64,000 bases of DNA. It comes from a virus. The notes below the pieces were generated by a model, which did not search any database, was not told the origin of the DNA, and saw only the letters and a program-made list of their open reading frames with translations. Location of the stretch: positions 72,387-136,386 of IMG/VR virus record IMGVR_UViG_3300047554_000527; one strand, given 5' to 3'. The position numbers were made by a program, and so were the translations under genes. Each line of letters opens with the position of its first letter. Positions within the stretch are counted from its first letter, which is position 1. This document shows positions 601 through 60,081 of this stretch, one piece after another.

Positions 601-624
601 AAAGAAAACCCGCCGAAGCGGGTT
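601..624 (-). terminator. Rho-independent terminator after the tmRNA
   Basis: The stem AACCCGC-TTCG-GCGGGTT runs into TTTCTTTT on the minus strand, directly after the tmRNA coding piece. It probably ends the whole permuted tmRNA transcript. Confidence 0.85.
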
Positions 625-627
625 CTG

Positions 628-788: not shown

Positions 789-789
789 A

Positions 790-864: not shown

Positions 865-878
865 GCTAATCTCCTTTA

Positions 879-1015
879 TGGTGGACCAGGCGGGAGTCGA
901 ACCCGCGTCCAGAACACTTTTCTCTTTGCTTCATACAGCAATAACTTATATTTAAACATCTTTTTTAAAAGATGTCAAATACTTTGGCAAACTTCCCAGG
1001 GCGTGTGGAGCCTTT
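879..1015 (-). ncRNA. ssrA: two-piece tmRNA, acceptor piece (T arm and CCA)
   Basis: Read on the minus strand, this piece comes before the coding piece, so the gene is circularly permuted. It holds the 3' strand of helix 5 (1001-1010), an A/T-rich hairpin (ACATC...GATGT near 957-976), part of helix 2 (935-939), the conserved GGACGC leading into a T arm (stem GCGGG/CCCGC with TTCGACT loop, 891-907), the acceptor strand CTGGTCC (883-889), discriminator A and an encoded CCA (879-881). The 5' boundary is approximate. Permuted tmRNA genes are known in alphaproteobacteria, some cyanobacteria and one betaproteobacterial lineage; the tag type here fits the last. Confidence 0.92.
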
Positions 1016-43836: not shown

Positions 43837-43893
43837 ATTTTTTCCTGAGTTAAATATTTAACGCTCGGCTTCTAAAAGATAATTAAACTTGAA

Positions 43894-44220
43894 ATGATAA
43901 CATTCACCGAATTAGCATTGAAAAAAATAAAAACACAATTGGAAAAGCGTGGTAAGGGTGTAGGTATCCGAATTGGGGTAAAAACTACTGGTTGCTCTGG
44001 TCTGGCTTATGTGCTAGAATATGTTGATGAATATATCTACGAAACTAGTGTTATAAACTACGCCCAAAAAGACTTTGCAGTTTTGATTGATCGAAAACAC
44101 GAACCTTACCTGCAAGGCATGACTGTAGATTATATTCGTGAAGGTCTCAATGAAGGATTTAAATTTATTAATCCCAACGAACGAGATCGGTGTGGTTGTG
44201 GTGAATCATTTAGGGTATAA
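43894..44220 (+). CDS. iscA: A-type iron-sulfur carrier, IscA-like (second A-type protein)
   Basis: 108 residues with the three cysteines Cys34 (TTGCSGLAY), Cys100 and Cys102 (DRCGCGESF). It is closer to IscA than to ErpA, so the phage has two A-type carriers, the other at 6756-7085. It is followed after one base by an acyl carrier protein gene. Its partner target is not evident; a desaturase is a di-iron enzyme but not an Fe-S protein, so a direct link is not implied. Confidence 0.93.
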   Translation: MITFTELALKKIKTQLEKRGKGVGIRIGVKTTGCSGLAYVLEYVDEYIYETSVINYAQKDFAVLIDRKHEPYLQGMTVDYIREGLNEGFKFINPNERDRCGCGESFRV

Positions 44221-44221
44221 A

Positions 44222-44473
44222 ATGGAAAACATAGAAGAAAAGATTAAAGATATTATGGCTAAATCTTTCCTAATCGAACGCACTCGGTTAGAGGACGATG
44301 CCCACTTGCAAGACGACCTAGGCGTCGATAGTCTTGGCCTGTTTGAAATGGTTATCAACTTAGAAGATGAATATGGTATTGAGCTAAATGACAAAGAACT
44401 TCTAAAATTTGCCCGAGTTGGACAAGCTGTAGAAGTTCTTGCTAGATTGATTAGAGAACAGGTCAAGCCTTAA
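44222..44473 (+). CDS. acyl carrier protein
   Basis: 83 residues from ATG 44222, one base after iscA; a longer frame upstream is inside iscA. The phosphopantetheine site is LGVDSLGLFEM (Ser37), and the acidic helices DEYGIELNDKELLKF follow. ACPs carry acyl chains in fatty acid or polyketide-type synthesis. It may feed host lipid synthesis or act with the phage GNAT or PP-loop enzymes; it could also serve the desaturases. Convergent with the next gene, sharing four bases at the ends. Confidence 0.93.
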   Translation: MENIEEKIKDIMAKSFLIERTRLEDDAHLQDDLGVDSLGLFEMVINLEDEYGIELNDKELLKFARVGQAVEVLARLIREQVKP

Positions 44474-44702: not shown

Positions 44703-45305
44703 TTAGCGTTTTTCAACATAGAAAATATGATTACCTACTTTGGCTTCACGCTTTAAATTGTGCCAGCGTGGGTTTATCCTACTGCTGTGAAAATACAGCC
44801 ATTCGCCCATGAGAGAATGATGTAGATCGTAGCCGCCCGACAATAAGTTTCTTGCCACTTCGAGACTTTCTTGCCAGCGCTGATCGCTTTCCTTGATCCT
44901 GCGGGTAATTGCACATACCCAACTGAACTGACAGACTGCAACACGATCAACTACTGTGCGAGTTTCAACATGCTGTTCTGTCTTTTTAAAGGGACCCCAT
45001 CCTGTAACAACTTCTTTAATTGTCCTAATTTCTCTAGGACGCTCAAAAACTGTTTTCTGTTTAACAACTTCACAAACTGAGTTTGGGAAGCTAGGATGCT
45101 GTGTCCTGTTTAGAGTAACCATTCCAACGGCAATCTTGCCTTTTTCTGGTTCCCCGCCCGATTCAAAATAGATGTTACGTGCCAAACACATAAGCTCTTT
45201 TTGATCGATTTTACTGGTGCCGTTATCGTATGCAGCCGCTACGCCACTTGATAAAAACATCAGGCCTATTACTGTTGTGGCTACTGTTTTCAGTAGTTTA
45301 GACAT
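44703..45305 (-). CDS. SleB-type cell-wall hydrolase (endolysin-like)
   Basis: 200 residues from ATG 45303-45305 (RBS AAGGAGGG); the longer upstream frame is rejected. Signal peptide 1-24 (LLKTVATTVIGLMFLSSGVAAA). Hydrolase_2/SleB domain: ARNIYFESGGEPEKGKIAVGMVTLNR with the catalytic Glu, then VCQFSW and WLYFHSSRINP. The insert with EIRTIKEVVTGWG is unusual. SleB enzymes cut glycan strands of peptidoglycan; with a signal peptide it could act as an exported lysin. It has its own sigma-70 promoter. Confidence 0.9.
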   Translation of the reverse strand: MSKLLKTVATTVIGLMFLSSGVAAAYDNGTSKIDQKELMCLARNIYFESGGEPEKGKIAVGMVTLNRTQHPSFPNSVCEVVKQKTVFERPREIRTIKEVVTGWGPFKKTEQHVETRTVVDRVAVCQFSWVCAITRRIKESDQRWQESLEVARNLLSGGYDLHHSLMGEWLYFHSSRINPRWHNLKREAKVGNHIFYVEKR

Positions 45306-45339
45306 TGGTATGCCCTCCTTTTTTAAGAATGTAAGAATA

Positions 45340-45368
45340 ATTATAACACAGAAAAGAAAACCCGTCAA
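45340..45368 (-). promoter_or_regulatory. sigma-70 promoter of the SleB-like hydrolase
   Basis: Minus strand: TTGACG (45363-45368), 17 bases, TATAAT (45340-45345). The -35 box is part of the upstream terminator stem. Confidence 0.75.
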
Positions 45369-45400: not shown

Positions 45401-46084
45401 TTACACTAGTTTCTTGTTGAGAGAAAAATATCGTTGTATATAATGAGATGTAAGATCGTTAAGCATTGTCTGCTCAGCTGATCCAAAGGTCAGCCCTGTA
45501 AAATTTTCTATTTGCGACTGTACAATAGAAGGATTAAGAAACAAATTTTTAAATTCAATTTTTAATACATTTGAATCCTGAGGTATATTAACGCAAAAAA
45601 ATCCGTCTAATAATTTTTGATAAATTAATATTTTTATAAATGTTGCTTTTTCTGTTTCAGTGAGTTCAGACGGCGTAGCATCCGTATTACTGAATAAATG
45701 AGAATGATTTTGCAATATTTTTCTAAAAAATTGAGAAGAAGAAATTTCATATGCTTCGACAAAAAATGATTGATAATAAGCTCGGGCAATATGATTACAG
45801 TCTTCTAATCTATGTGTCAATACAACAATTTTACATTCAGGAAATCTCGAATTTAATTTTTGATAATCTGGAGTAAATGGTACTGAAATTACTCGATTGC
45901 CGTCAGGTATTATACAGTTTTCAAAAAAGAAATCTTTTGTTAGTTCTCCATTTAATGGTTGAGTGTAAGAAATTGAGTTGAAATCTAAAATTTCCGTACC
46001 TTGACAAACATTACTAATTAATCTACTAATGAAATTTCCGGAAGACCCGGGAGTAGCACATACAAAATAAAGATTTCTACTCAT
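45401..46084 (-). CDS. sulfotransferase-like P-loop protein
   Basis: 227 residues. The start CATPGSSGNFISRLI (9-23) resembles the phosphosulfate-binding loop of sulfotransferases; IVVLTHRLEDCNHI fits the second (3'-phosphate) region loosely. It may transfer sulfate from PAPS to a sugar or protein, but the fold call is tentative. It starts the island of modification genes and overlaps the next gene by four bases. Confidence 0.55.
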   Translation of the reverse strand: MSRNLYFVCATPGSSGNFISRLISNVCQGTEILDFNSISYTQPLNGELTKDFFFENCIIPDGNRVISVPFTPDYQKLNSRFPECKIVVLTHRLEDCNHIARAYYQSFFVEAYEISSSQFFRKILQNHSHLFSNTDATPSELTETEKATFIKILIYQKLLDGFFCVNIPQDSNVLKIEFKNLFLNPSIVQSQIENFTGLTFGSAEQTMLNDLTSHYIQRYFSLNKKLV

Positions 46085-46578
46085 GTGTTGGTTCCTTGAT
46101 ATAAAGTAAGAGAAATACCATTTTGATACATATCTGCTACTTCGCTAAAAGTTGTTGGCAAGTTAGACCATTCTTCAGTGTTTTCAACATGGTTACTTTC
46201 GATAGTAACTACTTTTTCTTCTTCTAGCGTCCAACCTAAGTCAGGAAGAAGTATATCTCGCTTAGTGGCATAGTCGTCATACGCATCATTTTTTCTCAAA
46301 TAGTTAATTAACATATCAACATCTACTGTCCCAAAAACATAATATGATACTAACGGTTCTAAAGGGTTTGAGAAAAATAGATACCCTGTACCGGCTTCAT
46401 AACTGGTAATTTCATTAATGTAGGTTTTGTAAGCTAGAGCTGCCTGAAGATAATCAATTAATTTTAAAAATTTTTCATCCTCGAGAGGTAACGCAAGAAG
46501 TGCATCTGGGGACCCCCAGCAAGTGTAGTCTGCCAAATTACTCAAATTTACTTTTCTAATAATTAAATGTAGTTGCAT
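46081..46578 (-). CDS. hypothetical protein of the modification island
   Basis: 165 residues, acidic, mixed alpha/beta (HLIIRKVNLSNLADYTCWGSPDALLALPLEDEKFLKLIDYL). No family recognised. Four-base overlap with the sulfotransferase-like gene suggests a shared task. Confidence 0.65.
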   Translation of the reverse strand: MQLHLIIRKVNLSNLADYTCWGSPDALLALPLEDEKFLKLIDYLQAALAYKTYINEITSYEAGTGYLFFSNPLEPLVSYYVFGTVDVDMLINYLRKNDAYDDYATKRDILLPDLGWTLEEEKVVTIESNHVENTEEWSNLPTTFSEVADMYQNGISLTLYQGTNT

Positions 46579-46594
46579 AGGTGTATTTACCTAA

Positions 46595-47137
46595 TTAAAT
46601 AGGGCATATTACCAGATGAATCCTAGGATCTAATCCGCCGTTATATACAAAATGATGCTTTGTAGTATCAACTTTGTAGAAATATCCATCTGCGGGCATG
46701 TGAAAACATACTGCGCCTATGTTACCCGCCCGAAACACCTGTGCCATGTATGCATTGGAGTTTGTCTGTAATACTAAATGATATCTAACAGATGTATCTG
46801 CATGTACTGTGAGTCCTGCTTTAGAAGGTAATCTCATCAGTCGAACTCTACCCAATTTAAAGTTTTCAACAACCGCTAGTTCTTGTATCTTATCTAACAA
46901 GTATTTAGGAATAGCAGAATTTATTTCTGTGAATTCGTATTCATTAGCAATGTCTTCGCCAGCTTCTCTATTGTAAAGACTACCAACACAATCTTTCCAA
47001 ATATCACCCTGTACAATTTTTCTGTGTGTGAGTCCTATTTGATTTTCGACTCCCCACGAGGTTAGTGTTAAGATGTGATCGAGATTCCGATTTACTTCAT
47101 TAAGGTCAGCAGTTAAATTAACTTTTTCGATAAACAT
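46595..47137 (-). CDS. 2OG/Fe(II) oxygenase, aspartyl/asparaginyl beta-hydroxylase-like
   Basis: 180 residues. The iron facial triad is visible as His112-x-Asp114 (LTVHADTSVRYH) and His161 or 162 (TTKHHFVYNGG); Arg172 (PRIHLVIC) binds 2-oxoglutarate. The layout (RYHLVLQTN, DPRIHLV) is that of the Asp/Asn hydroxylase group. It would hydroxylate a protein, peptide or sugar-linked substrate. Another member lies at 49034-49720. Confidence 0.85.
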   Translation of the reverse strand: MFIEKVNLTADLNEVNRNLDHILTLTSWGVENQIGLTHRKIVQGDIWKDCVGSLYNREAGEDIANEYEFTEINSAIPKYLLDKIQELAVVENFKLGRVRLMRLPSKAGLTVHADTSVRYHLVLQTNSNAYMAQVFRAGNIGAVCFHMPADGYFYKVDTTKHHFVYNGGLDPRIHLVICPI

Positions 47138-47140
47138 AAA

Positions 47141-47683
47141 TTATTTAATTCCTATTACCATGTAGCGTTTAAAACTCCAGTCAGGATACACAAATTCCTT
47201 TTCTCCCTTAAACATAATCTTAGATAATGGATATTCTTCAACAAAATCATCTAGTGTTTCGCTGTGTGTAATATGATCTTTGTGAGGCATGTTATTACCC
47301 TGAAGGACAACACTAGTTCCTTGAGGTAAAGACTCAAACCATTGCTTACTTTCAAAATGTTCAGTACTGGTGTTGATCACAAGATCGCCGTACTGTCCTT
47401 CAAAGTTATTACAGTCTTGAGTAAATGCCTTGAACTTCCAATCTTGCCAAACCCAGTTTTCGTTTATCATGTCTGCAATAGATTGACAGGCAGGATCAAT
47501 ATCTAAACTACGAATTTTATTAACTTGAAACTTACCTCTGCTTAATAATAGAAATGCAGTTAGCCCGTACCAGCCTCCATAGATATATGTTAGATTAGAT
47601 GTTAATCCCAAACGTTCTAATTCTTCACAAAGCCAAATCTTACTACCTATTTGTCCGCTGCTGAAAGCATCTTTATCAATCAT
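47141..47683 (-). CDS. methyltransferase-like protein
   Basis: 180 residues with a Rossmann-type start: TYIYGGWYGLTAFLLL (motif I region), SLDIDPACQSIAD (acidic residue after strand 2) and DLVINTSTEHF (motif IV region). The pattern of class I SAM methyltransferases is recognisable though the glycine motif is loose. Its substrate is unknown. Overlaps the next gene by eight bases. Confidence 0.65.
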   Translation of the reverse strand: MIDKDAFSSGQIGSKIWLCEELERLGLTSNLTYIYGGWYGLTAFLLLSRGKFQVNKIRSLDIDPACQSIADMINENWVWQDWKFKAFTQDCNNFEGQYGDLVINTSTEHFESKQWFESLPQGTSVVLQGNNMPHKDHITHSETLDDFVEEYPLSKIMFKGEKEFVYPDWSFKRYMVIGIK

Positions 47684-49037
47684 TTAAAAACTTTCCTTTA
47701 GGGTTGTGACCTATAACTCGCGTGTTAGGGTGTAGAAACGATATAAACTTATCATATCTAGACTGACTGCCTTTTAACCCGTATAGACCAATTAAGAAGT
47801 CAGTAGAAAATATATTAGAAATATGTAACAAACATTTACTATCGGCTATTTCGTTTAGCAGATTAAAATAATCTTGTACTAGGTCTGTTCTTATAAATTT
47901 AACAGGCGTGGATCTAAACTGGTTTAAGTAATGATTAAAGTTACCTTGATAGTATTCAACAGTTTTCTTGAACCCTTCTAAGAAACCTGCGGCCAACACT
48001 CCGTTTGTGATAATAGGAGGGTTGTCTTGTCCAAACCATTTTAAATTATTAGCATGTTCAAATGTTTCTACTAGTTCTTTAATATCGTACGATTTCGATG
48101 TATAGATATGCTTGATCCAATCTAGGCTAATTTGATTGTAGTCATAGATCAATATCTCGCCGTTACTGGTAAGAGCATTTGATTGGAATACATCTAGATA
48201 TTTGAAGCCACTAGCAGGTAGTGCAACAATCTCATATTGCCGGCCTCGATTATGAACGTGCATGTGTTCGCTATTAATTGCCCACACTTGGTGACCAACT
48301 CCTGTAATCATTTCGTTAATTAATCGCAACTGATTAAAGTTATTAACACCCGGCATAATCTTTCTATTCTTATAGGAATGATAAAAGGCAAAGCTACTGG
48401 TCTCTGGATAATAATATGTACGCTTACTTCTAATCTTCTGATTCCAATTGATTATCTCTAGGCCTGCCTTTAATGCTTTGTCTATAAAGTTCCAACCTTG
48501 TTTGCAATGAAACTGAGGCCTGCGGTTTCCAGTGTCTTTGATCCACAGAGGAGTATAGTCGTCGTGAAAGTTCTCTGCGCTACGTTCAACAACTACTATA
48601 TCATCAACAGCCGGTGCCCAACTACCGTACTTGGGCTTGTCTATATTTTTCCAATTATCAGTATTGACTAGGACAAACTGATGGTGTAACTCGTACCACT
48701 TCTCTTTCCATTCTAATATATGCGCCGCCGCAAGATAGTTGGGTGTCCTTTTAATTTCATCTACTATGTCTAACAATATTGATGAGTCGTATATCCTAAC
48801 ACCTGCTGCCATAAACAAAATATGCTTGTATTGGTCAGCATATTGTTCTAGGCCTTGATCAATACTAGGTGCATAAACAATATCGAGATTAAAACTAACT
48901 TCTTCTAACCTATGTGCATAAAATGTAGTATAGTCAGTCATTAACTCTTCTAACTGACGATGTCTCAACATGTCAGAAGGAAAGATACAGATTGCAATAT
49001 TAATATCATTAACAAAGGTACGTTCTACTACAATCAT
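47676..49037 (-). CDS. large protein of the modification island, possible glycosyltransferase-like N-terminus
   Basis: 453 residues, no signal peptide. The N-terminal 200 residues (INIAICIFPSDMLRHRQLEELM, YKHILFMAAGVRIYDSSILLDIV) look like a GT-A-type fold with an acidic loop not clearly a DxD; the C-terminal half (GFKYLDVFQSNALTSNGEILIYDYNQISLDWI) is methyltransferase-like. A two-domain enzyme is possible but not certain. Coupled to both neighbours by 4-8 base overlaps. Confidence 0.55.
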   Translation of the reverse strand: MIVVERTFVNDINIAICIFPSDMLRHRQLEELMTDYTTFYAHRLEEVSFNLDIVYAPSIDQGLEQYADQYKHILFMAAGVRIYDSSILLDIVDEIKRTPNYLAAAHILEWKEKWYELHHQFVLVNTDNWKNIDKPKYGSWAPAVDDIVVVERSAENFHDDYTPLWIKDTGNRRPQFHCKQGWNFIDKALKAGLEIINWNQKIRSKRTYYYPETSSFAFYHSYKNRKIMPGVNNFNQLRLINEMITGVGHQVWAINSEHMHVHNRGRQYEIVALPASGFKYLDVFQSNALTSNGEILIYDYNQISLDWIKHIYTSKSYDIKELVETFEHANNLKWFGQDNPPIITNGVLAAGFLEGFKKTVEYYQGNFNHYLNQFRSTPVKFIRTDLVQDYFNLLNEIADSKCLLHISNIFSTDFLIGLYGLKGSQSRYDKFISFLHPNTRVIGHNPKGKFLND

Positions 49038-49720
49038 AATTGTTTCAGTGAATCTGTTATTAATTTATACATCATAGCAGTTGGCTGGCCGTGAATGATA
49101 ATATGATGTCTATATTCATTAGATTCATTTACAACAACATGCTCTTTGCCAATATCTAGCATAAACCCTCTTCCAACTTTAAAAGGTACAGTTCCATAGT
49201 CTTTAAAAATAAATCGGCAACCTTTAGGTTGTGTCAGTGCAAAGTTTAAAGGACCAAATATCCTTCCAGGACCATCTACATGCGGCATTATATAACCACC
49301 AGGTGCAAGTTGCATTATCCTAACACGACCAAACTTACTGTATGGTAGTCCTTTAATCAAATTAACTATATACGGGCAGTACTCACACACTTCAGTCCAT
49401 CTATATGCAGAATCGTCTGTGTGCCCGTATCTATCGTAATGTTCAGTCTTATCGTAATCTAGTCCGTGTAATGTCAGGCCAGCCCAACCTTCGTGTCCAT
49501 AGCTGTTAATCTTATCCTTATCTCTATGTGGTACAAAATAGTATTGCAGTTTGTCCAATTCTTGTTTAACAGTTTCTACATCAAGGTTGCAGAACACAGG
49601 TGCCCAAGGCCAATCGCTGGTCCAGAGGTTACTAGGCAATGTTCCCGGAGTCCATGTTTTCTGCTCGTTTGATTCTATAAAACTGTTTAAAAGATTATTC
49701 ATATATTTTAATAGACTCAA
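49034..49720 (-). CDS. 2OG/Fe(II) oxygenase, aspartyl/asparaginyl beta-hydroxylase-like
   Basis: 228 residues. The triad is His147-x-Asp149 (YIMPHVDGPG) and His194 (GKEHVVVNES); Arg204 in EYRHHIIIHG binds 2-oxoglutarate. Related in layout to 46595-47137 but with a 100-residue N-terminal extension containing a Tyr/His-rich stretch. Overlaps the next gene by 26 bases. Confidence 0.85.
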   Translation of the reverse strand: MSLLKYMNNLLNSFIESNEQKTWTPGTLPSNLWTSDWPWAPVFCNLDVETVKQELDKLQYYFVPHRDKDKINSYGHEGWAGLTLHGLDYDKTEHYDRYGHTDDSAYRWTEVCEYCPYIVNLIKGLPYSKFGRVRIMQLAPGGYIMPHVDGPGRIFGPLNFALTQPKGCRFIFKDYGTVPFKVGRGFMLDIGKEHVVVNESNEYRHHIIIHGQPTAMMYKLITDSLKQL

Positions 49721-50630
49721 TAGATCTAAAGGTTGTTAGTACTTCGTGATTCCATTTCAGCTTCGATGGGTGTCTATAAGCCTTCCAATGCAATGGGTTA
49801 GGATCGTATTTTAAAAAATTACCGTCAATGATTAACTCACCTATAACCATTCTACCTAGAGACATTTCATTTAGATTATGATAAGGTATTTTCTTTTGTA
49901 ATTCGGGTGGCAGCTTTTTAACCCAGTTTTGAAAGAATGATATAGTTTGTACAGGTAAATGATCTGCATTAAAATTTAACCATGTTTCTGCTGCAAATCT
50001 CTTTTGAGGTTTAACCATGTCTCTTGCCACAACTTCAACGTCATCATCCTTAGCAACCGCAAACCAATCCTTGCCTAGGGTATTATAACCTAAATAAAGT
50101 TTCCCCCAAGACAGACCGTATTCTAAATATAGCTTGTCTTCGTCTTTAACTGGAAGGTGCAGACCGATAGGATGTATATCGTACAGGACCCCAAATCCTC
50201 CCCATGTGCCAGATTTAGTAATCATCGCATCTTCGCACATATGAATATGTTCATTTAATGCAAAAAAGTTTGTTTTTAACGTTTCTGTTAGCCTGCCTTT
50301 AAACGCCAGCTCATCCATTCTCTGACCAAATATCTCAAACTCTTCGTGCAGATAGTTTAGTTTCTGATTGTCTAACTCGTCGAACGTACTAATTTCCTTA
50401 TCGTACTCAACTGCAATTCTTGCAACAATATCTTTAATCTGTTGTGTGATTTCAGGAACGTCTAGCTCTGACCTATTGTTAAACACACTAGATATTTTAT
50501 GATCGGGGTTCTTTAAATTGGTGTTAGTAAGATCTACCCACTTATCACTCAAATGCGTAGGGTATATATTATATTTTAAAGAGTGTATCTTATCAAACTT
50601 ATCTTTAATTTTAACTTCTAATATCTTCAT
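49695..50630 (-). CDS. hypothetical protein coupled to radical SAM gene
   Basis: 311 residues. Notable are LHEEFEIFGQRMDELAF, FALNEHIHMCEDAM and YLEYGLSWGKLYLGYNTLGKDWFAVA. Proteins of this layout accompany twitch radical SAM genes in other marine or freshwater phages as far as I can recall, but no function is known. Four-base overlap with the radical SAM gene makes it a likely partner or substrate. Confidence 0.65.
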   Translation of the reverse strand: MKILEVKIKDKFDKIHSLKYNIYPTHLSDKWVDLTNTNLKNPDHKISSVFNNRSELDVPEITQQIKDIVARIAVEYDKEISTFDELDNQKLNYLHEEFEIFGQRMDELAFKGRLTETLKTNFFALNEHIHMCEDAMITKSGTWGGFGVLYDIHPIGLHLPVKDEDKLYLEYGLSWGKLYLGYNTLGKDWFAVAKDDDVEVVARDMVKPQKRFAAETWLNFNADHLPVQTISFFQNWVKKLPPELQKKIPYHNLNEMSLGRMVIGELIIDGNFLKYDPNPLHWKAYRHPSKLKWNHEVLTTFRSIESIKIYE

Positions 50631-51865
50631 AGTAGGTCTGTAAAAAACTTGCTGTTAGTATGTCTCAGTTGGTCTAACTTAACTATATATTCTTTAGTTT
50701 GGTCTAGCAAATGACTCCAGTCTTCGCTGTTCATAAAGTCTGCCATTTTCTTTAAACGTTGAATACTAGGGTTATCTGTATTAGCTGCCGCATAGTTATA
50801 GATTTTTTCAGTAATCTTGGCCTTAGTTTGTTTAGGTAGTGCCTTGGCGCAAAGATATTGTGGATAGTGTAGAATGCCTGTATGAAATATGCCGTCGAGT
50901 CTAGGCTTACTGATCTTCTTATAGTTCTGACGCAACAACCAATCGGCAAACTCAGGAAGGTAATAGATATTTAGAGCCTGAACGGTGCAGAGTATCTTAA
51001 TGTCTATGTTTGCAGGTGTTTGATCATAAAGGTGCAGGTTCCGTTCAATTGTATCCCAGTCTGCTGGATAACGAATGTAATCGTTTATTTCCTTACCGCC
51101 ATCAATGCTGATCATAACATCTACATACTTAAATTTAGTCCAAAGATCTACAACTTCCTTATCATAGATTGTGCCGTTAGTGTGGTATCGTAGTTCAATA
51201 TGTTTAGCCGCGTTTAGATCGACTAGCTTCTTTAATATGTCTTTGTGTTCTTTGATGTACAAAGGCTCACCGCCACCAAATATAATATGACGTAGGTCTT
51301 TGGCAGATTCATAAAAGTCTTTTAAGAACTCTGCATCTTTATACCATTCGAAGTTATTTGTAGAATAGCTTTCTACCTTATGCTTCCAGTCCCAACGTGC
51401 ATCTGTCTTTAGTTCTTGTTTTAGAATTGTAGCATGTTTAACCCATTTACTAGAATCAATAGGCCTGCACATTACACATTGTAGATTACAGGTATTGCCT
51501 AATCGTAGATCAAGCGTGATCCAATCTACATCTAGTGAGCCATCTGGGTTAGTTTTACTAACTAACTCTTTGATATAGTCTTCACCTAGTTTGTTTTTCC
51601 AAATGTGATTTTCTATTTGTCTATGACTGTAGATACCTACAGCTTCTTCCTTATAGCAGGACGAACAATGCTTTACCTGTCGTCCTGCTAGCATGTCTAG
51701 TCTTGCAGATTTAAAATGATCGCTATTCCATACTTCTTTTAAAGACATATTGTTTAGATTAAGACCCTTTTCGCTGTTAGAAATGCAACAGAGTAATGCA
51801 CTACCATCGGTATAGGTAGCCATGTGTGTCCAGGGCAATATGCAGAATGTTTTTGAATTACTCAT
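50627..51865 (-). CDS. radical SAM protein with N-terminal twitch-like cysteine domain, copy 1
   Basis: 412 residues. CX3CX2C is C126-NLQ-C130-VM-C133 after LDLRLGNT, binding the 4Fe-4S cluster that cleaves SAM; FGGGEPLY is the SAM-binding GGE motif. N-terminal cysteines (C8, C26, C27, C67, C70) suggest an extra cluster-binding twitch/SPASM-like module. Such enzymes modify peptides or sugars by radical chemistry. Seven-base overlap with copy 2. Confidence 0.92.
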   Translation of the reverse strand: MSNSKTFCILPWTHMATYTDGSALLCCISNSEKGLNLNNMSLKEVWNSDHFKSARLDMLAGRQVKHCSSCYKEEAVGIYSHRQIENHIWKNKLGEDYIKELVSKTNPDGSLDVDWITLDLRLGNTCNLQCVMCRPIDSSKWVKHATILKQELKTDARWDWKHKVESYSTNNFEWYKDAEFLKDFYESAKDLRHIIFGGGEPLYIKEHKDILKKLVDLNAAKHIELRYHTNGTIYDKEVVDLWTKFKYVDVMISIDGGKEINDYIRYPADWDTIERNLHLYDQTPANIDIKILCTVQALNIYYLPEFADWLLRQNYKKISKPRLDGIFHTGILHYPQYLCAKALPKQTKAKITEKIYNYAAANTDNPSIQRLKKMADFMNSEDWSHLLDQTKEYIVKLDQLRHTNSKFFTDLL

Positions 51866-53174
51866 TGATTAGGTCCGCAAGTTCAGTGCTGATTGATCTT
51901 AGACTTTGATCGCGCTCAACATCAAGACTATGAGTATAGTCTTTAAATCTACGCATTTGATCTTCCCAATCCGTAGCACGAGGTTTTTGTAGTAGGCCTA
52001 TAATGCCATTTACGCTATTAACAGTTAGTTCAGGAGTTTGGCCGGTAAAGTTTGCATCTCTATAGGCAATTAACTCGTTGGCAACTCTTGTTCTAATATC
52101 ATCGGGCAGTATAGACACAGAAAGGTGTGCAGGATGAACATTGATAAGAAAATCAACAAATATGCTTTTCTTATATTTCTTGTTTAGGTCATCTACCCAT
52201 TTAAGAGTATCGACTAGGTTAAACACATTATAAGTCTGTACTGTAGGAGTTACTCCTAAATGCACATTAGGCATTTGTGCAAGTGTTTCTACGTTTGCAC
52301 TAATCTGCGCCCAATGGCTCGGACTACGGACGTAGTCATTAACTTCTCCGACTCCGTCTATACTGGCATTGATATTAACTCTTCCAAATTGTCCAATAAG
52401 GTTTGTAAATTTCTTATTAACGTTAGTACAGTTAGTATTAAAGAATAAAGTTATGTCGCGACGACCTCGGCGAATACACTCTTCCATAAACTTAAAATTA
52501 TTTTGGATAAGTGTAGGTTCGCCGCCAGTCATATATACTTTCTTTAGACTAGGGATTAGATCAATAATCTGATCCCAAAGTACATCTCCGTCGAACCAAG
52601 GTTGCAGGTCCATGATCCTTTGATCAAATCTACCAAAACTTTTAGCCCATACAAGTTTATATTTTTCGTCTTTCTTTTCTAATTCAATATGCTCTTTCGC
52701 AATCTGACTGCTGTTAAAAGGGTTGCACATTCTACACTTAAGGTTACAGAGATTGCCTAGACGCAGATCTAAATAGGCAATACTGTAGTCTAACTCTCCT
52801 CCTGTAAGAACAGCCCGGTCAATAAGTTTGTACATTGTCTGTTCGCCTAGTCTCCCACTCCACTCAGTATTAGAGTACTGTCTATTACTGATTCTTCCAC
52901 TGCTCTCTTGTAAGTAACAGACTTTACAACCGTCTAATGCTTCTCCATTAACCATAGCAGTCCTAATGTTTTTCATTTCGGCTGAATTCCAAGCATCTTC
53001 TAGTTTGTCTTTGATTGTTATCCTGTTGCCTTCTTTGTCTAGAATTCTGTGGGTGCCTCGCTTCATCATACAACAAGGTTGAATAGTTGCATCCGTATTA
53101 ACTACCATACTAACAAAAGGTATGGCACAGAATGTAGGCATCACATCATCGATATCTTTAGTAAATTTGTTCAT
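51858..53174 (-). CDS. radical SAM protein with N-terminal twitch-like cysteine domain, copy 2
   Basis: 438 residues. CX3CX2C is C143-NLK-C147-RM-C150 after LDLRLGN, with MTGGEPTLI as the GGE motif. N-terminal C16, C34, C35, C83, C86 repeat the arrangement of copy 1. The two are tandem paralogues sharing the order of motifs but well diverged, so they probably do different steps on one substrate. Fe-S cluster demand here may be served by the phage IscU/ErpA/IscA. Confidence 0.92.
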   Translation of the reverse strand: MNKFTKDIDDVMPTFCAIPFVSMVVNTDATIQPCCMMKRGTHRILDKEGNRITIKDKLEDAWNSAEMKNIRTAMVNGEALDGCKVCYLQESSGRISNRQYSNTEWSGRLGEQTMYKLIDRAVLTGGELDYSIAYLDLRLGNLCNLKCRMCNPFNSSQIAKEHIELEKKDEKYKLVWAKSFGRFDQRIMDLQPWFDGDVLWDQIIDLIPSLKKVYMTGGEPTLIQNNFKFMEECIRRGRRDITLFFNTNCTNVNKKFTNLIGQFGRVNINASIDGVGEVNDYVRSPSHWAQISANVETLAQMPNVHLGVTPTVQTYNVFNLVDTLKWVDDLNKKYKKSIFVDFLINVHPAHLSVSILPDDIRTRVANELIAYRDANFTGQTPELTVNSVNGIIGLLQKPRATDWEDQMRRFKDYTHSLDVERDQSLRSISTELADLINE

Positions 53175-54348
53175 TAAATTTTTCTCTTAACCACTCTCTG
53201 CTGTTTATATTTTGTAGTGCAGATGCGTTTGTTTTATTTGCTAGACCGTATTCAACTCCTGCAAGTGCTCCTGCAATAGCATACTTGCCATAGAGTCTAT
53301 CTTGTCCTAGTGTAGTCCAAGCGGTGATTCTATCTTGATTCTCATCTTCTATTTGATTCTTGATAGTACCTGCTGCCAATTTAGCGCATTCTCTAAATGC
53401 ACTGCGCCATGTACTAAACTCGTCTGTGTTGAAGGAAGTAATGTTGCTGACTGTGTTCATTACTTTGAGATTGCCTAGTCCTGTGGTAAGATCAACATTC
53501 CAGGAAGTTACCCGATCTAACAGATGCTTAGGAAATAATTTGACTCCGCCATATCCGTATTCTAAATCATTGATAGGATTACGACTGCGCCATACATGCA
53601 CACAATCTCTATTAAAGATACTAGGTTGATAATTAAACGTCCATGTATCTAATAACTCTGCATCGCCATCAACTACCCAAAACATATCTGTCTGTGCTAG
53701 TTCGGCGGCAGCTTTGTGCGCTTCAAATATTCCCTTTACTCCATGAACTCTTTGAGCAAAGGGAACACGATCTAACACTCGTTGCCAGTTAGCATCTGCA
53801 TTAGATTCGTCGTAACTAATGAATATTACATCGAGCTCGCTGAGAATGTTAGGGCTAACAAATCCCATATCCTTAATACCTTGTGTATCGGCACAAGCTC
53901 GCGCCTTCTTAACCCAAATCTTATCGCCTTTGAAGTGAGTAGGATCTAGATACCATACGTGCTCTAGTCGATAGTCTTCCGGCTGTATATCCACTGTTAT
54001 CTTATTGAACAAGTGCTGCGGTAAGTCTTGGTTGTATTCTTCAATAACATCAAACTCTTTAATCTTTGAGATCTTAAAGTCGCACTCAATAACAGTCCAA
54101 CCATTAGCAGGGGACCAACTACTTTTAAACTTTTTAGCGATCCACTTGTCACCTTTGACCCACATCAGACAACGATCACTAGATTGACTAGTGTCAATGT
54201 AGTCGAGTATCCATTCATCGTATATAGGGTTAAGGATAATAAATTCGCCGCGGCCTTGCCCTAACTGATGCAGGCGCTGATCATAGCTATTAGGATCAGT
54301 ATCCCAACGAACAGATAACACACGGTCTTTTTCAATTAAAGATCCCAT
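53158..54348 (-). CDS. GT-A glycosyltransferase-like protein, copy 1
   Basis: 396 residues. About 170 N-terminal residues are unique; the C-terminal part holds VIFISYDESNADANW, RVHGVKGIFEAHKAAAELAQT, WVVDGDAEL (DGD as metal-binding acidic motif) and GYGGVKLFP. The same series occurs in the next gene, so the pair arose by duplication. Likely adds a sugar, probably with a donor nucleotide bound at the DGD motif. Seventeen-base overlap with the radical SAM gene. Confidence 0.8.
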   Translation of the reverse strand: MGSLIEKDRVLSVRWDTDPNSYDQRLHQLGQGRGEFIILNPIYDEWILDYIDTSQSSDRCLMWVKGDKWIAKKFKSSWSPANGWTVIECDFKISKIKEFDVIEEYNQDLPQHLFNKITVDIQPEDYRLEHVWYLDPTHFKGDKIWVKKARACADTQGIKDMGFVSPNILSELDVIFISYDESNADANWQRVLDRVPFAQRVHGVKGIFEAHKAAAELAQTDMFWVVDGDAELLDTWTFNYQPSIFNRDCVHVWRSRNPINDLEYGYGGVKLFPKHLLDRVTSWNVDLTTGLGNLKVMNTVSNITSFNTDEFSTWRSAFRECAKLAAGTIKNQIEDENQDRITAWTTLGQDRLYGKYAIAGALAGVEYGLANKTNASALQNINSREWLREKFNEQIY

Positions 54349-55247
54349 GTTACTTCCTTTTCAGTTAAAGCATTATGTGTCCTAGGAGGATTGACCCATA
54401 CTTCTCTAAAGAACTTACTTTGATCTGGATCTAAATCAGCAATGGGTAAATTGAGTTCTCTACGTAGGGCATCTCCATATCTTCTTGCAGTATAGATAGG
54501 ATCAAGGTCTTTATGTTCGGTGAATAGACTGTTGAGATACTCAAAGTCTCTAACCTGCACATAATCCCAGTTAGTACAGTTAGTCATATAAGCGCCAACT
54601 CTTGCACCGTAGATAGCCCATGCTCCGTTAGCGACATCGGCTCCTACACTGGCCCACATTAACAGTCTGCGATAATTACGATCACCTAACTGTTTCCTTG
54701 GATTTACAATATCCTGTTTAGATCCTCGATTGAGTGTCATCTTTACACCTTCACGAAACCCTGCACGCCATGCTTGCAATGGGCTAGCATTGTTATGTAC
54801 ATCTGAATAACAGTCTGCCATTTGTACATAGTTGTCCTGCCAACAGAAATCAACTTGCGACCCGCCCGAGCCTGCGGCCTCATGTGTGTTCATATTCAAT
54901 ACAAAATCTCTGGTCCAACATTTTAATCCGCCATTGCCATAGACTAACCCGTTAATGATATTCTTTCCGGCCCAAGACATCTGTGTGTGTTCTTTCTTGG
55001 GTAATTTGTCTGTATCAAATGACAAGTTAAAAAAACTAGGATCAACGATATTATCTGCATCAACAGTTATAAAGTGTTCAGTCTCGCTGAGACGAGCACA
55101 GGCTTTGTGTGCTGCATCGCTGCCTTCTACTCCATGTACTCTTTTAGCCCAAGGTGCTTTGTTAAGTAGGTCGGCCCAATTCTTTTCGGCATTAGGCTCG
55201 TCATAACTTAAAAATATGCAGTCTATTTCAGCTAGGTTTAACTTCAT
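54336..55247 (-). CDS. GT-A glycosyltransferase-like protein, copy 2
   Basis: 303 residues from ATG 55245-55247 (five codons earlier is possible). IFLSYDEPNAEKNW, RVHGVEGSDAAHKACARLSET, TVDADNIVDP (DAD, 63-65) and GNGGLKCW match copy 1. The rest contains a Cys/Trp-rich GGSQVDFCWQDNY segment. Acceptors are unknown: virion glycans or host surface are candidates. Confidence 0.8.
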   Translation of the reverse strand: MKLNLAEIDCIFLSYDEPNAEKNWADLLNKAPWAKRVHGVEGSDAAHKACARLSETEHFITVDADNIVDPSFFNLSFDTDKLPKKEHTQMSWAGKNIINGLVYGNGGLKCWTRDFVLNMNTHEAAGSGGSQVDFCWQDNYVQMADCYSDVHNNASPLQAWRAGFREGVKMTLNRGSKQDIVNPRKQLGDRNYRRLLMWASVGADVANGAWAIYGARVGAYMTNCTNWDYVQVRDFEYLNSLFTEHKDLDPIYTARRYGDALRRELNLPIADLDPDQSKFFREVWVNPPRTHNALTEKEVTWDL

Positions 55248-55767
55248 GTTTATATGAATCAAATAATTTGGTTGTATAGAAAGTTAGATCATCGGTGCCT
55301 GTATAATCAATATCAATTGAACCTCTTACCAAATCTGTAGGATCTAGATCACAATGCCAAATAGGTAGATAAGGATTATTCTTTTTGCAAGCAACAATGT
55401 TTAACTTTTTATGTGAATACTGGCTATCTGACTTCCACCATTCTAATGAGGATTTTATTATTGTTACTTGTACTGTTTTTGTTGCTACATCTTGAATTAC
55501 AGTTACTTCTGCTTTCTCTAAATTATTATCAAATTTAATAACTCTAGATTTTATTGACTGTGCAACAATCGCAGATTGTGTTCTTTGCTTAATGTAACAA
55601 CCGTCCGGTCTAACTATCGCATAATATCTAACAACCTTTTCTTTTCCTAAAAAGATCTGTTCAGCAATAGGAGAGTCAGTTTCAAAATAGCTGCCATCTC
55701 TTCCAGGAACGGGTTTATGAGACAGACCTAGAATATTTCCGCTGTTAGGATCATAATAGACAATCAT
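55228..55767 (-). CDS. hypothetical protein of the modification island
   Basis: 179 residues, mostly beta, starting IVYYDPNSGNILGLSHKPVPGRDGSYF. A small repeat-like fold with no membrane segment. Overlaps neighbours by 20 and four bases. No function recognised. Confidence 0.65.
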   Translation of the reverse strand: MIVYYDPNSGNILGLSHKPVPGRDGSYFETDSPIAEQIFLGKEKVVRYYAIVRPDGCYIKQRTQSAIVAQSIKSRVIKFDNNLEKAEVTVIQDVATKTVQVTIIKSSLEWWKSDSQYSHKKLNIVACKKNNPYLPIWHCDLDPTDLVRGSIDIDYTGTDDLTFYTTKLFDSYKHEVKPS

Positions 55768-56537
55768 ACAAAGTCCTTTTTTACATAATGTAAGATTCCT
55801 GTTTGAACGTAAGGTCCTAATCTAATCAAATCATCTTTATGGATTGCTATCAAATCTTCCCATTGCTCTGTTTTATTTTTCCATCCCTGTATCTGTGCTT
55901 TCATATGTGTAAATGTAGGGAAACTTTCTTTAGTAGTAACTTGATCTTCAATGCCCATTATTTCAACTGCCATTGCCATTGCAAGATCAATTGACTGAGA
56001 TTTTTGTATGTAGTCCGGAGTATAGATGTGTATCCATCTGTCCCAATTCATCACAATCTGTTTGAGTAGTTGAAAGAACTCTGCAACCATAGGAGTCTTT
56101 TTAAAGTATGTATATGCAGAATATACATTGGGCAAATTATGTGCAGTAAATGCACGTCTATATGGATTTACAGGTCCAACCCATTCACCTCTATAGGTCT
56201 GCACCTTGTTAGTTAATAGCAGTTCGTAGTTCTGCATATATTTCCACCAGTGACTAACATCCGATAAGAACAACATGTCGCTGTCTAAGATAACTGTTTC
56301 GTCATAGGGTGTAAGATTATAAAACTGCACTCGGTTTTCAATCTTCCACTTTGAATCAGGTTTTAAATCTACAGGTAAGTCGATAACACAATCGAACAGT
56401 GTAGCATCGACTTCTTGATCTGTGATAACACTTAATCTGCTAACACAAGACTGAGTTTTGCTAATACTGATTGCAAGATGTTCTGCCTGGCGTGCATATT
56501 CTGCACCTTGTGCCATTACTAGGTATCCCTGTGTCAT
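55764..56537 (-). CDS. GT8-like glycosyltransferase, copy 1
   Basis: 257 residues. PYDETVILDSDMLFLSD contains the DxD motif (DSD, 85-87) of GT-A enzymes such as GT8; SVITDQEVDA before it is a typical donor-site strand. Its neighbour (56534-57337) shares PYDETIVMDTDIVI and SLVTDQET, so they are paralogues. Probable sugar transfer to an unknown acceptor. Confidence 0.82.
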   Translation of the reverse strand: MTQGYLVMAQGAEYARQAEHLAISISKTQSCVSRLSVITDQEVDATLFDCVIDLPVDLKPDSKWKIENRVQFYNLTPYDETVILDSDMLFLSDVSHWWKYMQNYELLLTNKVQTYRGEWVGPVNPYRRAFTAHNLPNVYSAYTYFKKTPMVAEFFQLLKQIVMNWDRWIHIYTPDYIQKSQSIDLAMAMAVEIMGIEDQVTTKESFPTFTHMKAQIQGWKNKTEQWEDLIAIHKDDLIRLGPYVQTGILHYVKKDFV

Positions 56538-57337
56538 GCCAACTCCTTGTTGATCTGTTCTAATAAATCAAACTTATTAAACACATGAACATCTTGCTTG
56601 ACTTTACAAAGCCCGTTAGGTGTTAAAAACTTTACACCAGACTCAGTCATGTCAATTACCCTATCTTCAAAGTTACTGTGTAACAGATTAAAAGGAATAG
56701 TAGATGCAGGATGATTAAGAGTGTGTAGAGCAATGCTCCAAACAAAATCGTTGCGAACAGGGCCAGTAGGTAATTCATAAACATGAGATAACCAATTGTA
56801 ATGCTGTTTAACCCAACGGCAAGTTTGAAAGAATTGTTTAACAGTCTCAGTCTTTTTAAAATAAAATACAGTAGCCCAATAGAACTTAATACTACGTTCG
56901 CTAACCCATTTAAACTCAAAGTCACTGTTGCCTTGAAGATCAGTGCTAGTATCGCATACAATTAGATCTTCAGCCGACCCCCACAGTTTAGACAATGTAG
57001 AAGTTTGGATTACAATGTCAGTGTCCATTACAATAGTTTCATCATAGGGGCTTAGGTCCCATGCATCAATTCTATCTAAGTTATGAAATGTCAGTTGATT
57101 ATCAGGACTTCCGTATCGCTTAGTCTGTGTTGCTAGACTATCTTGTAGTATTATTTTATCAAAACGATCTTTCCATCTAGGGTTGGTGGCCTGCATCTGG
57201 TCACAGGTCTCTTGATCCGTGACTAAACTAGTACCTGCACCTAAATGATCGGATATCCTGGCCGCTAACCAAAAGGCCATTAGACCATAATTAACCTTTT
57301 CGTTATTGTGTGCAAATAACAGAACTCCGCGATTCAT
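56534..57337 (-). CDS. GT8-like glycosyltransferase, copy 2
   Basis: 267 residues with DTD at 105-107 in PYDETIVMDTDIVIQTS and LVTDQET near residue 40. Paralogue of the preceding gene, overlapping it by four bases. Confidence 0.82.
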   Translation of the reverse strand: MNRGVLLFAHNNEKVNYGLMAFWLAARISDHLGAGTSLVTDQETCDQMQATNPRWKDRFDKIILQDSLATQTKRYGSPDNQLTFHNLDRIDAWDLSPYDETIVMDTDIVIQTSTLSKLWGSAEDLIVCDTSTDLQGNSDFEFKWVSERSIKFYWATVFYFKKTETVKQFFQTCRWVKQHYNWLSHVYELPTGPVRNDFVWSIALHTLNHPASTIPFNLLHSNFEDRVIDMTESGVKFLTPNGLCKVKQDVHVFNKFDLLEQINKELA

Positions 57338-57672
57338 AGATCTGTTAGACTCCTAACACTGCGCTGTGTTCTAAGTTTTTGGTAAGCCTCACCGTACTGT
57401 ACAATAGCCTTATTATATGCAGACCTAGCATTATCGTAGAGTTCTGTAGGATTTGTTACTAAGATTGGAGTGCCGTTGGCATCTAAAAACCAAGATGAGG
57501 TTGAGTCAAACCCGCCAAGCCATTCCTGTGTAATTTTAAACAGTCCGCCGTTATAGGCCACAACAGTATCCGTTTCGAACTGTTCTTTTAACAGTCGTCT
57601 CTGTTGGTTAAGGGTTGATTGATATTGGGCGAAGCTGAGAGCTTCTTCAAGTTGTTGATCTAGATTTTCCAT
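57334..57672 (-). CDS. hypothetical protein, helical ends
   Basis: 112 residues. Helical at both ends (LDQQLEEALSFAQYQSTLNQQRRLLKEQF and YNKAIVQYGEAYQKLRTQ) around a small beta core (VVAYNGGLFKITQEWLGGFDS). It may be an assembly helper for the next structural gene. Four-base overlap with the GT8-like gene. Confidence 0.6.
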   Translation of the reverse strand: MENLDQQLEEALSFAQYQSTLNQQRRLLKEQFETDTVVAYNGGLFKITQEWLGGFDSTSSWFLDANGTPILVTNPTELYDNARSAYNKAIVQYGEAYQKLRTQRSVRSLTDL

Positions 57673-57716
57673 ACCCTTAATTATACTAAACTAAGGGCAG
57701 GAAAGCTAGTTATTGA

Positions 57717-58556
57717 TTACCAACCCCCACTGGAAATAGTAATAATAGATGGCGCAACGATAGCATCAGTACTGCTGTAATAGGTTATTGATGCGGCAGC
57801 ATCTGTATTCACATCTTCATCAACTGCCGGCCCAGTTCCAGTTTGATCGCCCACGTCTGCTTCACTTAAAGTAACGGTGATATCTAACTGAGTGGCACTA
57901 ACTTTGGTAATTTGAATTCGAGCATAGTTTTCAGAATATTTTGCATTAGCACCGTAGTCATAGACATCAATATTTGTACCGGCATCCCACTGAGTATTTG
58001 TATATGTTTGACTAGGGATCGCATTCAAAATGTTATCTTGCCAATCAATGTCTTTGGGTGTGCCCGTACTGTTTGAGCCGCTAACATCAACAACAAAATA
58101 GCCGCCCAGGTTAAACCAATAATTAGCAGCGTCTGCACCCGGCCATGAGAAAGTATAAATCCAGGTATGAATACCATTCCAAGGTCCTGTTAGACTTTGA
58201 GTTAAAACACTAGAAGTAATTTGCGAACTATGAACTGTAGCCTTGTTAGTTTCACAGTAATCGGCGGCGGTCTTGTAAGCATTAGCATCAGCGGCTAAAA
58301 CTAGATTACCTTCAGCAGCATCATTGATTGTGCTATCGGCACCTGTGATGTGTTTATAACATTTATTAATATCAACACGTAGGTTATCCCACTCTGCGTC
58401 ATTAATCACAGGATTGGATGCTACTTGACTGCTGGTCATTGTTTGTCCGTAGTAAGTAGATAACACACCCGCAATCGTCGATTGAATAGTGTTATAGTCC
58501 GCTTGATAAATTACATCTAACGTCGAAGTTTTTGGAAATACGCCTGCGCCTGCCAT
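57717..58556 (-). CDS. virion structural protein
   Basis: 279 residues, beta-rich, no signal peptide. N-terminal half helical (LDVIYQADYNTIQSTIAGVLSTYYGQ), C-terminal half a beta sandwich (YARIQITKVSATQLDITVTLSEAD). Similar proteins are found among structural genes of large T4-like phages. A CTAAATA-type late octamer lies close upstream (about 58575). Confidence 0.65.
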   Translation of the reverse strand: MAGAGVFPKTSTLDVIYQADYNTIQSTIAGVLSTYYGQTMTSSQVASNPVINDAEWDNLRVDINKCYKHITGADSTINDAAEGNLVLAADANAYKTAADYCETNKATVHSSQITSSVLTQSLTGPWNGIHTWIYTFSWPGADAANYWFNLGGYFVVDVSGSNSTGTPKDIDWQDNILNAIPSQTYTNTQWDAGTNIDVYDYGANAKYSENYARIQITKVSATQLDITVTLSEADVGDQTGTGPAVDEDVNTDAAASITYYSSTDAIVAPSIITISSGGW

Positions 58557-58585
58557 ATTAAATCCTAATCAAATATTACGACTAT

Positions 58586-59329
58586 TTAGCCAGTAACTAG
58601 GTCATGTCCGAATGCAAACGTACCCAAGTGATTTAATTGTCTGCTGAGTATGTCATCTACCCAGATCCTATGGCCCTTGTCCCTAACGGCCTTGCAGAAA
58701 TTAATATCTTCCCCTAGGTAGTCTTCAGCTTCCTGCATCCATGTCACAGGAAAGTAGGGCTTTTCAATAGTATCAAACACATCAATACGTGTCAGCATAC
58801 AGCCCATGCCCATGCCCTCTACTTCGATCAGCTCTTTAGTTATAGGAGTATCTTTACTATGCTTAAGATATGAATCCCAGTTACCTCCTAATTCTTTATA
58901 GGCCACAGTTTTGTAGGGTAACTGTCTAGTTGTATAGTTACCGCCAACAATGGCTTCCTTGTGGTCCAGCAGCTTATAGGCTGTATAGAACGGGAAGCTC
59001 ATATCTGAGTCCAACCATAGAATGTGGGTAGCTGCCCACGAACGTGCGGCATTTACCAGATTTTCACGCTGGGCCTGTAGTAGGGTGCTCATGTTATAAA
59101 ACACCTTGGTTTCTATACCCTTTTGCCAATTGTACTGCAACATGCTGTGCAGGTTATGGCTGAATACACTGTGCATCATTTCTCTGCAGGGTACGCATAC
59201 AGCTAGACGTATCTCAGAATCCTCTCTAGGGGGTTCAGGAGCCCGGCTAACTGGAGCTGGGCTGGATGTTGCAGAGGAGTTGGGCTGAGTAGGGACGTTC
59301 TGCTTTAGGGCCTTGTTAAGTAAGCTCAT
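58586..59329 (-). CDS. GT-A (GT2-like) glycosyltransferase
   Basis: 247 residues. A disordered Pro/Ser N-terminus (1-38) precedes LAVCVPCREMMHSVF, ILWLDSDMSFP (DSD 107-109), GGNYTTRQLPYK, GMGCMLTRIDVF and GEDINFCKAVRDKGH, the order typical of phage GT2-like enzymes. Four-base overlap with the next gene. It may glycosylate virion proteins. Confidence 0.82.
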   Translation of the reverse strand: MSLLNKALKQNVPTQPNSSATSSPAPVSRAPEPPREDSEIRLAVCVPCREMMHSVFSHNLHSMLQYNWQKGIETKVFYNMSTLLQAQRENLVNAARSWAATHILWLDSDMSFPFYTAYKLLDHKEAIVGGNYTTRQLPYKTVAYKELGGNWDSYLKHSKDTPITKELIEVEGMGMGCMLTRIDVFDTIEKPYFPVTWMQEAEDYLGEDINFCKAVRDKGHRIWVDDILSRQLNHLGTFAFGHDLVTG

Positions 59330-59835
59330 CTTGGCATGTTCTCCGGTAGAGTATAGCCCTGGGCTGTTTCTACTTCTCTAGTAATAGTGTTGATCACATT
59401 GCCAATAGTGCCCGATACTTCCACAAATCTGCGATAGTTGTCCTCACTGAGTAGTACAGCCTTGGACATGGTGTCTCGGCCAACCCTGCCCGTAGTCATG
59501 AGATCTACCACAGCTTCACGACCCAGACGTTCGACCCAGTACTGTTCTTCACCCGCTTCAAACTGCTCTAGTTGTTGGGCCAGTTCTTCGGCTGTCCATT
59601 GATCTAGCCACTGATCTACCTGTTGCTGTTCGGCAATGAGGTTACTGCGTAGGCTGTCTTCTTGTACAGGAAGACGGCTCAGTTGATCTTCTAGTGTGCG
59701 ACGTTTGCATAGCATGTCATGTACAGCCCTGGGTTGATGCTCTCCATAGGCCTCTAGTACAAAATTCTTAAATTCCCAAGCACTTTGGTATTCGCAGTGC
59801 CCATCTAGTAATTGTCTAACCTTTGCGATATCCAT
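59326..59835 (-). CDS. hypothetical helical protein
   Basis: 169 residues, Gln/Glu/Leu-rich and helical (LRSNLIAEQQQVDQWLDQWTAEELAQQLEQFEAG). C-terminus shorter helices, ends TLPENMPR. Coupled to the GT2-like gene. Function unknown. Confidence 0.65.
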   Translation of the reverse strand: MDIAKVRQLLDGHCEYQSAWEFKNFVLEAYGEHQPRAVHDMLCKRRTLEDQLSRLPVQEDSLRSNLIAEQQQVDQWLDQWTAEELAQQLEQFEAGEEQYWVERLGREAVVDLMTTGRVGRDTMSKAVLLSEDNYRRFVEVSGTIGNVINTITREVETAQGYTLPENMPR

Positions 59836-59892: not shown

Positions 59893-60081
59893 TCAGTAGG
59901 TATATGGATAGTAGCGTCCCGCAAAGGAACTGCTCAATTGTACGTTACTGGCGCCGCCACCGTAGTAGGTCCAGCAGGGTGAGTATAAGCCCACTTGGGT
60001 GCCCAGGCCGTAGCTGTATAGAGCTCGAGCTACCCTACCCAGCTCAGTAGTGCTACCAGTACCTGAAAAGAAGCCTGCCAT
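59893..60081 (-). CDS. small Gly/Tyr-rich virion-type protein
   Basis: 62 residues: SGTGSTTELGRVARALYSYGLGTQVGLYSP, then YYGGGASNVQ and a Tyr-rich end. Preceded by GGAGATTAAAATAAC and, 15-25 bases further, by GGCTAAATATAG, a degenerate late octamer. Probably structural. Confidence 0.6.
   Translation of the reverse strand: MAGFFSGTGSTTELGRVARALYSYGLGTQVGLYSPCWTYYGGGASNVQLSSSFAGRYYPYTY

Follow-up and report, generated by a model that had tools for sequence, protein, structure and literature searches.

We describe a run of 17 genes that we interpret, with modest confidence, as a system for glycosylating a virion protein and tailoring the attached glycan, in which the product of g16, here called FIB, would be the acceptor. 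The run occupies positions 45401-59329, on the minus strand, of a 64,000-nucleotide stretch (the window), which corresponds to bases 72387-136386 of the 140,615-base IMG/VR virus record IMGVR_UViG_3300047554_000527. All 17 open reading frames (ORFs) are present and tightly packed; as an initial annotation of the bare sequence had stated, they point in one direction and mostly overlap, at 13 of the 16 junctions (range -35 to +44 nt). The genes belong together and fall into two modules. The first is a fixed-order core consisting of g16 (FIB), g15, a pair of GT8 glycosyltransferase (GT) genes (g14 and g13), g12 and the GT-A-like pair g11 and g10, a family that we call GTx. The second is a variable tailoring module with one to eight twitch radical S-adenosylmethionine (SAM) genes, g07, two 2-oxoglutarate (2OG) oxygenases, g05, g04 and a sulfotransferase-like gene. 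The fixed link between FIB and the GT8 pair is the strongest and most testable feature of the locus, and neither this link of a tail gene to a GT8 pair nor g16 as a likely virion protein heading the cassette was part of the initial annotation.

The link emerges from profile scans of IMG/VR, which confirmed at least 565 relatives for radical SAM, at least 596 for GTx and at least 551 for FIB; the best 80 of each were analysed. The query profile of the FIB scan was led by the GT-less protein of the cultured Pseudomonas jumbo phage PA5oct, and some contigs are near-duplicates, so that the locus counts do not represent independent events. FIB sequences are commonly just 18-30% identical across the set, and where at least 2.5 kb of sequence followed FIB, GT8 came directly next in 61 of 61 loci and g15 was present in 60. 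All 39 loci with at least 5.4 kb downstream carried GTx, and 27 of these had radical SAM genes as well. With GTx as bait (79 loci), g12 was found in 77, GT8 in 74, g15 in 69, FIB in 63 and radical SAM genes in 44, the absences of core genes lying mostly at contig ends, and the recurring order was FIB-g15-GT8-GT8-g12-GTx. Among 21 whole records, 17 contained GT8 and all 17 of those contained FIB; one (G003) has FIB without GT8, and the remaining three lack both genes, though every one of these records may be a fragment. The radical SAM set includes full-length versions of the locus (L004, L008, L010, L013, L018, L091 and L093) together with many shorter ones, and in G012 and G013 the radical SAM genes lie tens of kilobases away from the core. 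Taken together, the FIB-bait, GTx-bait and whole-record counts indicate an invariant core with an optional tailoring module. In L004 the entire order from g19 to g01 is kept at 32-90% protein identity to the window, and order conserved at such divergence means that the adjacency of the genes is not due to chance. The co-inherited modification island proposed initially is thus borne out by FIB, g15 and the two GT8 genes, adjacent in essentially every contig long enough; the core genes do not occur independently in relatives, and the tailoring genes are optional. The cassette is largely invisible to cultured-phage work, since tblastn with the window's FIB, GTx, g05 and g07 retrieved no matching record among 50,697 deposited phages.

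What is FIB? Homology makes this protein (57717..58556; all genes from g01 to g19 are on the minus strand) a probable virion, presumably tail, component and hence a candidate acceptor. Among eight cultured phages tested, its profile had a single match, PA5oct gp360 (E 7e-44 and 3.8e-46). In GenBank, gp360, gp359, gp358 (a T4 gp10-like tail pin) and gp357 bear the note 'ESI-MS/MS', the identical note stands on the PA5oct major head protein, and our reading of it is that these proteins were detected in virions. PA5oct gp359/gp358 and gp357 are homologous to the genes that stand at positions -1 to -4 before FIB in aquatic phages (9.6e-33 and 3e-66). A single family of tandem proteins of about 500 aa occupies position -1 in 51 of 54 testable loci, and the proteins of about 500 aa upstream of FIB match phage virion and tail-fibre families. 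The FIB structural model (pLDDT 89) has a helical N-terminal part and a beta C-terminal domain. Foldseek of the model against PDB gave nothing below 0.001, a PDB search with FIB gave nothing usable and the matches in BFVD were unnamed proteins; the fold is not established, because Z in the VIA rows stays at 7.7 or below.

Directly after FIB comes g15 (57334..57672), a conserved partner of about 112 aa whose Pfam matches were scattered, at chance level and without a convincing family; our guess is a chaperone or adaptor. The next two genes, g14 (56534..57337; DTD motif at 105) and g13 (55764..56537; DSD motif at 85; phrog_1903, 1e-13), are paralogous members of the GT8 family, and their family profile reaches glycogenin in PDB at 2e-8 over about 100 residues. 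Glycogenin glucosylates its own Tyr. The cassette enzymes share with glycogenin this profile relation and the DxD motif, and differ in that they are two short enzymes with a separate candidate acceptor gene and no evidence of self-glucosylation; glucosylation of a Tyr hydroxyl is putative for them. Further along, g12 (55228..55767) encodes a cassette protein of about 180 aa between GT8 and GTx. The GTx genes, g11 (54336..55262) and its longer paralog g10 (53158..54348), which has an additional N-terminal part, are 33% identical, and both carry DxD motifs. In this family, present in all of the at least 596 viral contigs mentioned above, the DxD and more than 60 further residues are invariant over 12 divergent members, and no match was found in Pfam, PHROG or PDB; we take its members for putative GT-A-type glycosyltransferases. 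Regarding the two duplicated GT pairs listed in the initial annotation, one is therefore GT8 by family membership and the other a pair of DxD-bearing paralogs that are putative GTs.

Residue conservation, counted over 175 distinct FIB domains, offers a possible attachment site. Tyr207 is present in 174 domains, and Trp172 and His69 in 173 each; in the FIB model Tyr207 sits on a short turn between strands. In PA5oct, where the GT8 profile gave no match, gp360 retains eight residues of the family (Y36, G37, H69, W126, F148, N149, G151 and G152) and has a gap at Tyr207, Met in place of Trp172 and Val in place of Asn210. It is a speculative idea that Tyr207 is the residue to which sugar is attached. 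The contrast comes from one GT8-less lineage, because the 11 cultured FIB matches are 98.5-100% identical, and scanning with sequence patterns from PA5oct brought up no further FIB that lacks GT8.

On these grounds we infer the following scheme. FIB, perhaps presented by g15, would be the substrate; the GT8 pair would attach a sugar and then extend it, perhaps first on the Tyr207 loop, and GTx would lengthen the chain after GT8. The radical SAM enzymes with g07, the 2OG oxygenases, g05, g04 and g01 would then alter the sugar, acting on the glycan and not on the protein, and it is this decorated tail that would meet the host or its predators during adsorption. A bolder version strikes us as rather unlikely: that large aquatic T4-like phages widely O-glycosylate a Tyr of a dedicated tail protein, tailor the glycan with radical SAM enzymes and oxygenases, and diversify the sugar by swapping tandem radical SAM arrays.

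The tailoring module starts beyond GTx with two N-terminal-twitch radical SAM paralogs, g09 (51858..53174; NF033640 3.5e-109; CNLKCRMC) and g08 (50627..51865; NF033640 1.5e-114; CNLQCVMC), which were recognised as such from the beginning. They score 366 and 383 bits, respectively, against NF033640 (N_Twi_rSAM), far over the cut-off of 170, and what sets these phages apart within that family is the tandem arrays, which reach a maximum of eight genes (L041). All 292 full-length copies keep CxxxCxxC, the cluster-binding motif, and the genes are thus under selection as enzymes. A single-protein scan with g09 found close relatives only, the wider set having come from the profile scans, and nothing usable came from PDB searches with g09 and g06. 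The same record holds a third radical SAM gene outside the window (G000:C1:63319-63660, minus strand). The product of g07 (u7; 49695..50630) may be a metalloprotein partner of these enzymes. In its model (pLDDT 90.6), residues of roughly 1-51 and 139-311 form a cyclophilin-like fold into which a helical bundle is inserted, and VIA returned Z values of 7.3-10.6, the top 29 rows being mostly cyclophilins or cyclophilin-like (root-mean-square deviation 3.2 over 139 residues). Its invariant residues are mostly inside the helical insertion (52-138), outside the cyclophilin core, and those conserved in the bundle are H95, E99, N126, H130 and E133. Foldseek of g07 against PDB gave nothing below 0.08, a PDB sequence search nothing usable and its profile no bacterial relatives; the closeness of the genes suggests an accessory role to the radical SAM enzymes.

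The two Asp/Asn-type 2OG-Fe(II) oxygenases also stood as annotated: g06 (49034..49720; HVD motif) and g03 (46595..47137; HAD motif) match PF05118 at 4.8e-12 and 5.3e-7, with 46.4 and 30.1 bits against a gathering score of 22.6. Commonly adjoining g06 is g05 (47676..49037), a two-part conserved protein with no relative in PDB. Two early assignments did not hold: the small conserved protein g04 (47141..47683) resembles a methyltransferase by eye only, with no profile support and a best PDB methyltransferase match at E 0.68, and g01 (45401..46084; in 8 contigs by gene-call clustering) has an N-terminal GSSGN loop as its only sulfotransferase likeness and matched no profile. Between g01 and g03, g02 (46081..46578) is present in the closest relatives only. 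Other phages of the family also possess genes for carbamoyltransferase (2.5e-52), nitroreductase-like proteins and PP-loop ATPase, the first two kinds beside the radical SAM genes. The nearest twitch radical SAM proteins in genome_contigs are mainly from Bdellovibrionota, which are predatory bacteria, and some of those arrays come with relatives of PF05118 and g05, which points either to a common source or to phage-bacterial exchange of the tailoring module. Array loci of this bacterial group include L305, L314 and L337.

Would these enzymes serve the virion or the host surface? The nearest published description is the 'host recognition cluster' of pelagimyophages and cyanomyophages (PMC7029224), a hypervariable region, placed between VrlC and gp14 of T4-like genomes, with tail fibres, GT8 and radical SAM cassettes, where modification of host lipopolysaccharide (LPS) O-chains and avoidance of coinfection are the favoured explanation. 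Both settings are T4-like aquatic phages with GT8 and radical SAM genes beside tail genes; that paper describes neither the fixed FIB-g15-GT8-GT8-g12-GTx order nor a virion-protein target, and our FIB and GT8 profiles found no match in HTVC008M or P-SSM2. Transferred to the present locus, the enzymes would act on host LPS or capsule against superinfection, and the tail adjacency would reflect late co-transcription. GT8 enzymes also work on the LPS core, and the bacterial twitch radical SAM neighbourhoods, mostly from Bdellovibrionota, contain some genes for GT2 enzymes and carbamoyltransferases amid housekeeping genes, although the Pfam tally of the bacterial neighbourhoods is mixed and leaves a glycan or other role undecided. 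However, the linkage of GT8 to a single virion gene and g15 is near absolute, and the run encodes neither a flippase nor a polymerase or ligase, nor is any membrane protein predicted in it: by a hydrophobicity test with a crude threshold, none of its proteins reaches the level of a membrane span. The membrane flippase and anchored GT of a gtrABC-type O-antigen module are likewise missing by this crude hydropathy measure. In addition, the phage genomes are of lytic type, and altering the host surface late in infection would presumably pay only briefly. We consider modification of the host surface doubtful, though it is the main and a serious rival; the tight FIB linkage and the lack of predicted membrane proteins speak for FIB decoration over a host glycan. 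Among the products suggested initially, decoration of fibres fits best, because of the virion-protein neighbour and the all-soluble enzymes, and alteration of the host surface is possible.

Several observations nevertheless weigh against FIB glycosylation. No glycan has so far been seen on these virions, late expression alone could account for the linkage to a tail gene, and PMC7029224, the sole paper found on such genes, reads them as modifying host O-antigen. In the window's lineage there are no gp10-like genes beside FIB, which comes after g17-g19 there, and for this reason the virion role of FIB in that lineage follows by homology only. With respect to Tyr207, its loss in the single PA5oct-type lineage could be structural drift; L249, a GT8-linked FIB, lacks it in the alignment, and G003 keeps Tyr at 207 with FIB present and no GT8 across its 114-kb record.

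If the sugar were one mark among several, the radical SAM and 2OG enzymes might instead hydroxylate or crosslink side chains of FIB or of other tail proteins. PF05118 enzymes generally act on Asp/Asn side chains, the nearest neighbours of NF033640 in NCBIfam are peptide-modifying SPASM families, and the tailoring genes differ between phages, as do the FIB sequences. The invariant part of the locus is, however, GT8-GT8-g12-GTx, with radical SAM genes missing from 35 of 79 GTx loci, and we regard such protein-side chemistry as unlikely. Still less probable, to the point of being rejected here, is a secreted ribosomally synthesized and post-translationally modified peptide whose short precursor the radical SAM enzymes would process. 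Two such enzymes with several partner genes are present, the next relative has g19 at 90% identity and some arrays have adjacent short ORFs. But no conserved short precursor, the hallmark of a radical SAM cluster of this kind, tracks the radical SAM genes across phages: g19 is confined to about 10 close contigs, and c13 and c27 each to a subset of phages. The run also lacks a transporter and a protease. Because precursor, transporter and predicted membrane protein are all missing, the secreted compound also envisaged in the initial annotation is without support.

The proposed FIB glycosylation has a precedent in kind. In mycobacteriophages, phage glycosyltransferases decorate capsid and tail-tube subunits (Freeman et al. 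2023, cited in PMC12619734 and PMC12363180); here a different tail protein is the candidate acceptor, and the locus further holds tailoring genes, among them those for radical SAM and 2OG enzymes. GT genes linked to a probable structural gene, as in virion glycosylation, are seen at every one of the 61 FIB loci. The cultured Vibrio phages KVP40 and K566 are T4-like and, as here, have clustered twitch-like radical SAM genes, with lower scores; their clusters (L007, 11995-14101, and L006, 11702-18438) are without the FIB-GT8 core, neither the FIB nor the GT8 profile giving a match. If FIB is indeed glycosylated, a near-invariant cassette carried by no fewer than several hundred contigs of aquatic phages would serve specifically to coat a tail protein with sugar, with a concrete acceptor gene, a candidate residue and an enzyme set at hand. 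One of the largest groups of phage radical SAM genes, which is otherwise assigned to host metabolism or to modification of LPS, would gain a function, and phage adsorption structures might then carry chemically diversified glycans.

Upstream of FIB the window carries three lineage-specific genes, together limited to about 10 close contigs. The GT2-like gene of the initial annotation, g17 (58586..59329; phrog_1574, 3.5e-28), is well founded, since some phage records label members of its family glycosyltransferases and it is 38% identical to such annotated proteins. Further upstream lie g18 (59326..59835; phrog_1409) and g19 (59893..60081), a Gly/Ser/Tyr-rich protein of 62 aa that is 90% identical in L004 and is no general precursor. 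Elsewhere, a family of 38-67-aa ORFs with the conserved C-terminus xDPFIY occurs near carbamoyltransferase genes (L041:12056-12169, L060:1307-1420 and six more loci).

The closest relative of the window, G004 (L018; g09 identity 79-80%), encodes a T4-like gp23 major capsid protein (3.3e-95); among deposited phages, this protein is best matched in jumbo phages, namely Sinorhizobium phage Phosso, Vibrio phage 2.275.O and the PA5oct group. The window's own record holds one short gp23-like fragment only and is therefore probably incomplete. A short ORF at L183:3766-4095 (G000:C1 about 58265-58594, outside the window) has a gp23-type N-terminal start and a C-terminal tail (..DAVxFxLKW..) common to several adjacent small ORFs, which gives it a chimera-like look. 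Beside the island, 43381-44473 and 44703-45368 hold genes for an acetyltransferase, an IscA/HesB-like protein, an acyl carrier protein (phrog_5934, opposite strand) and a cell-wall hydrolase; an Fe-S carrier of the IscA/HesB type adjoining two radical SAM genes may be no accident. Near the start of the window, ARAGORN predicts a tmRNA gene at 579-971 (minus strand) with the tag ANDESYALAA.

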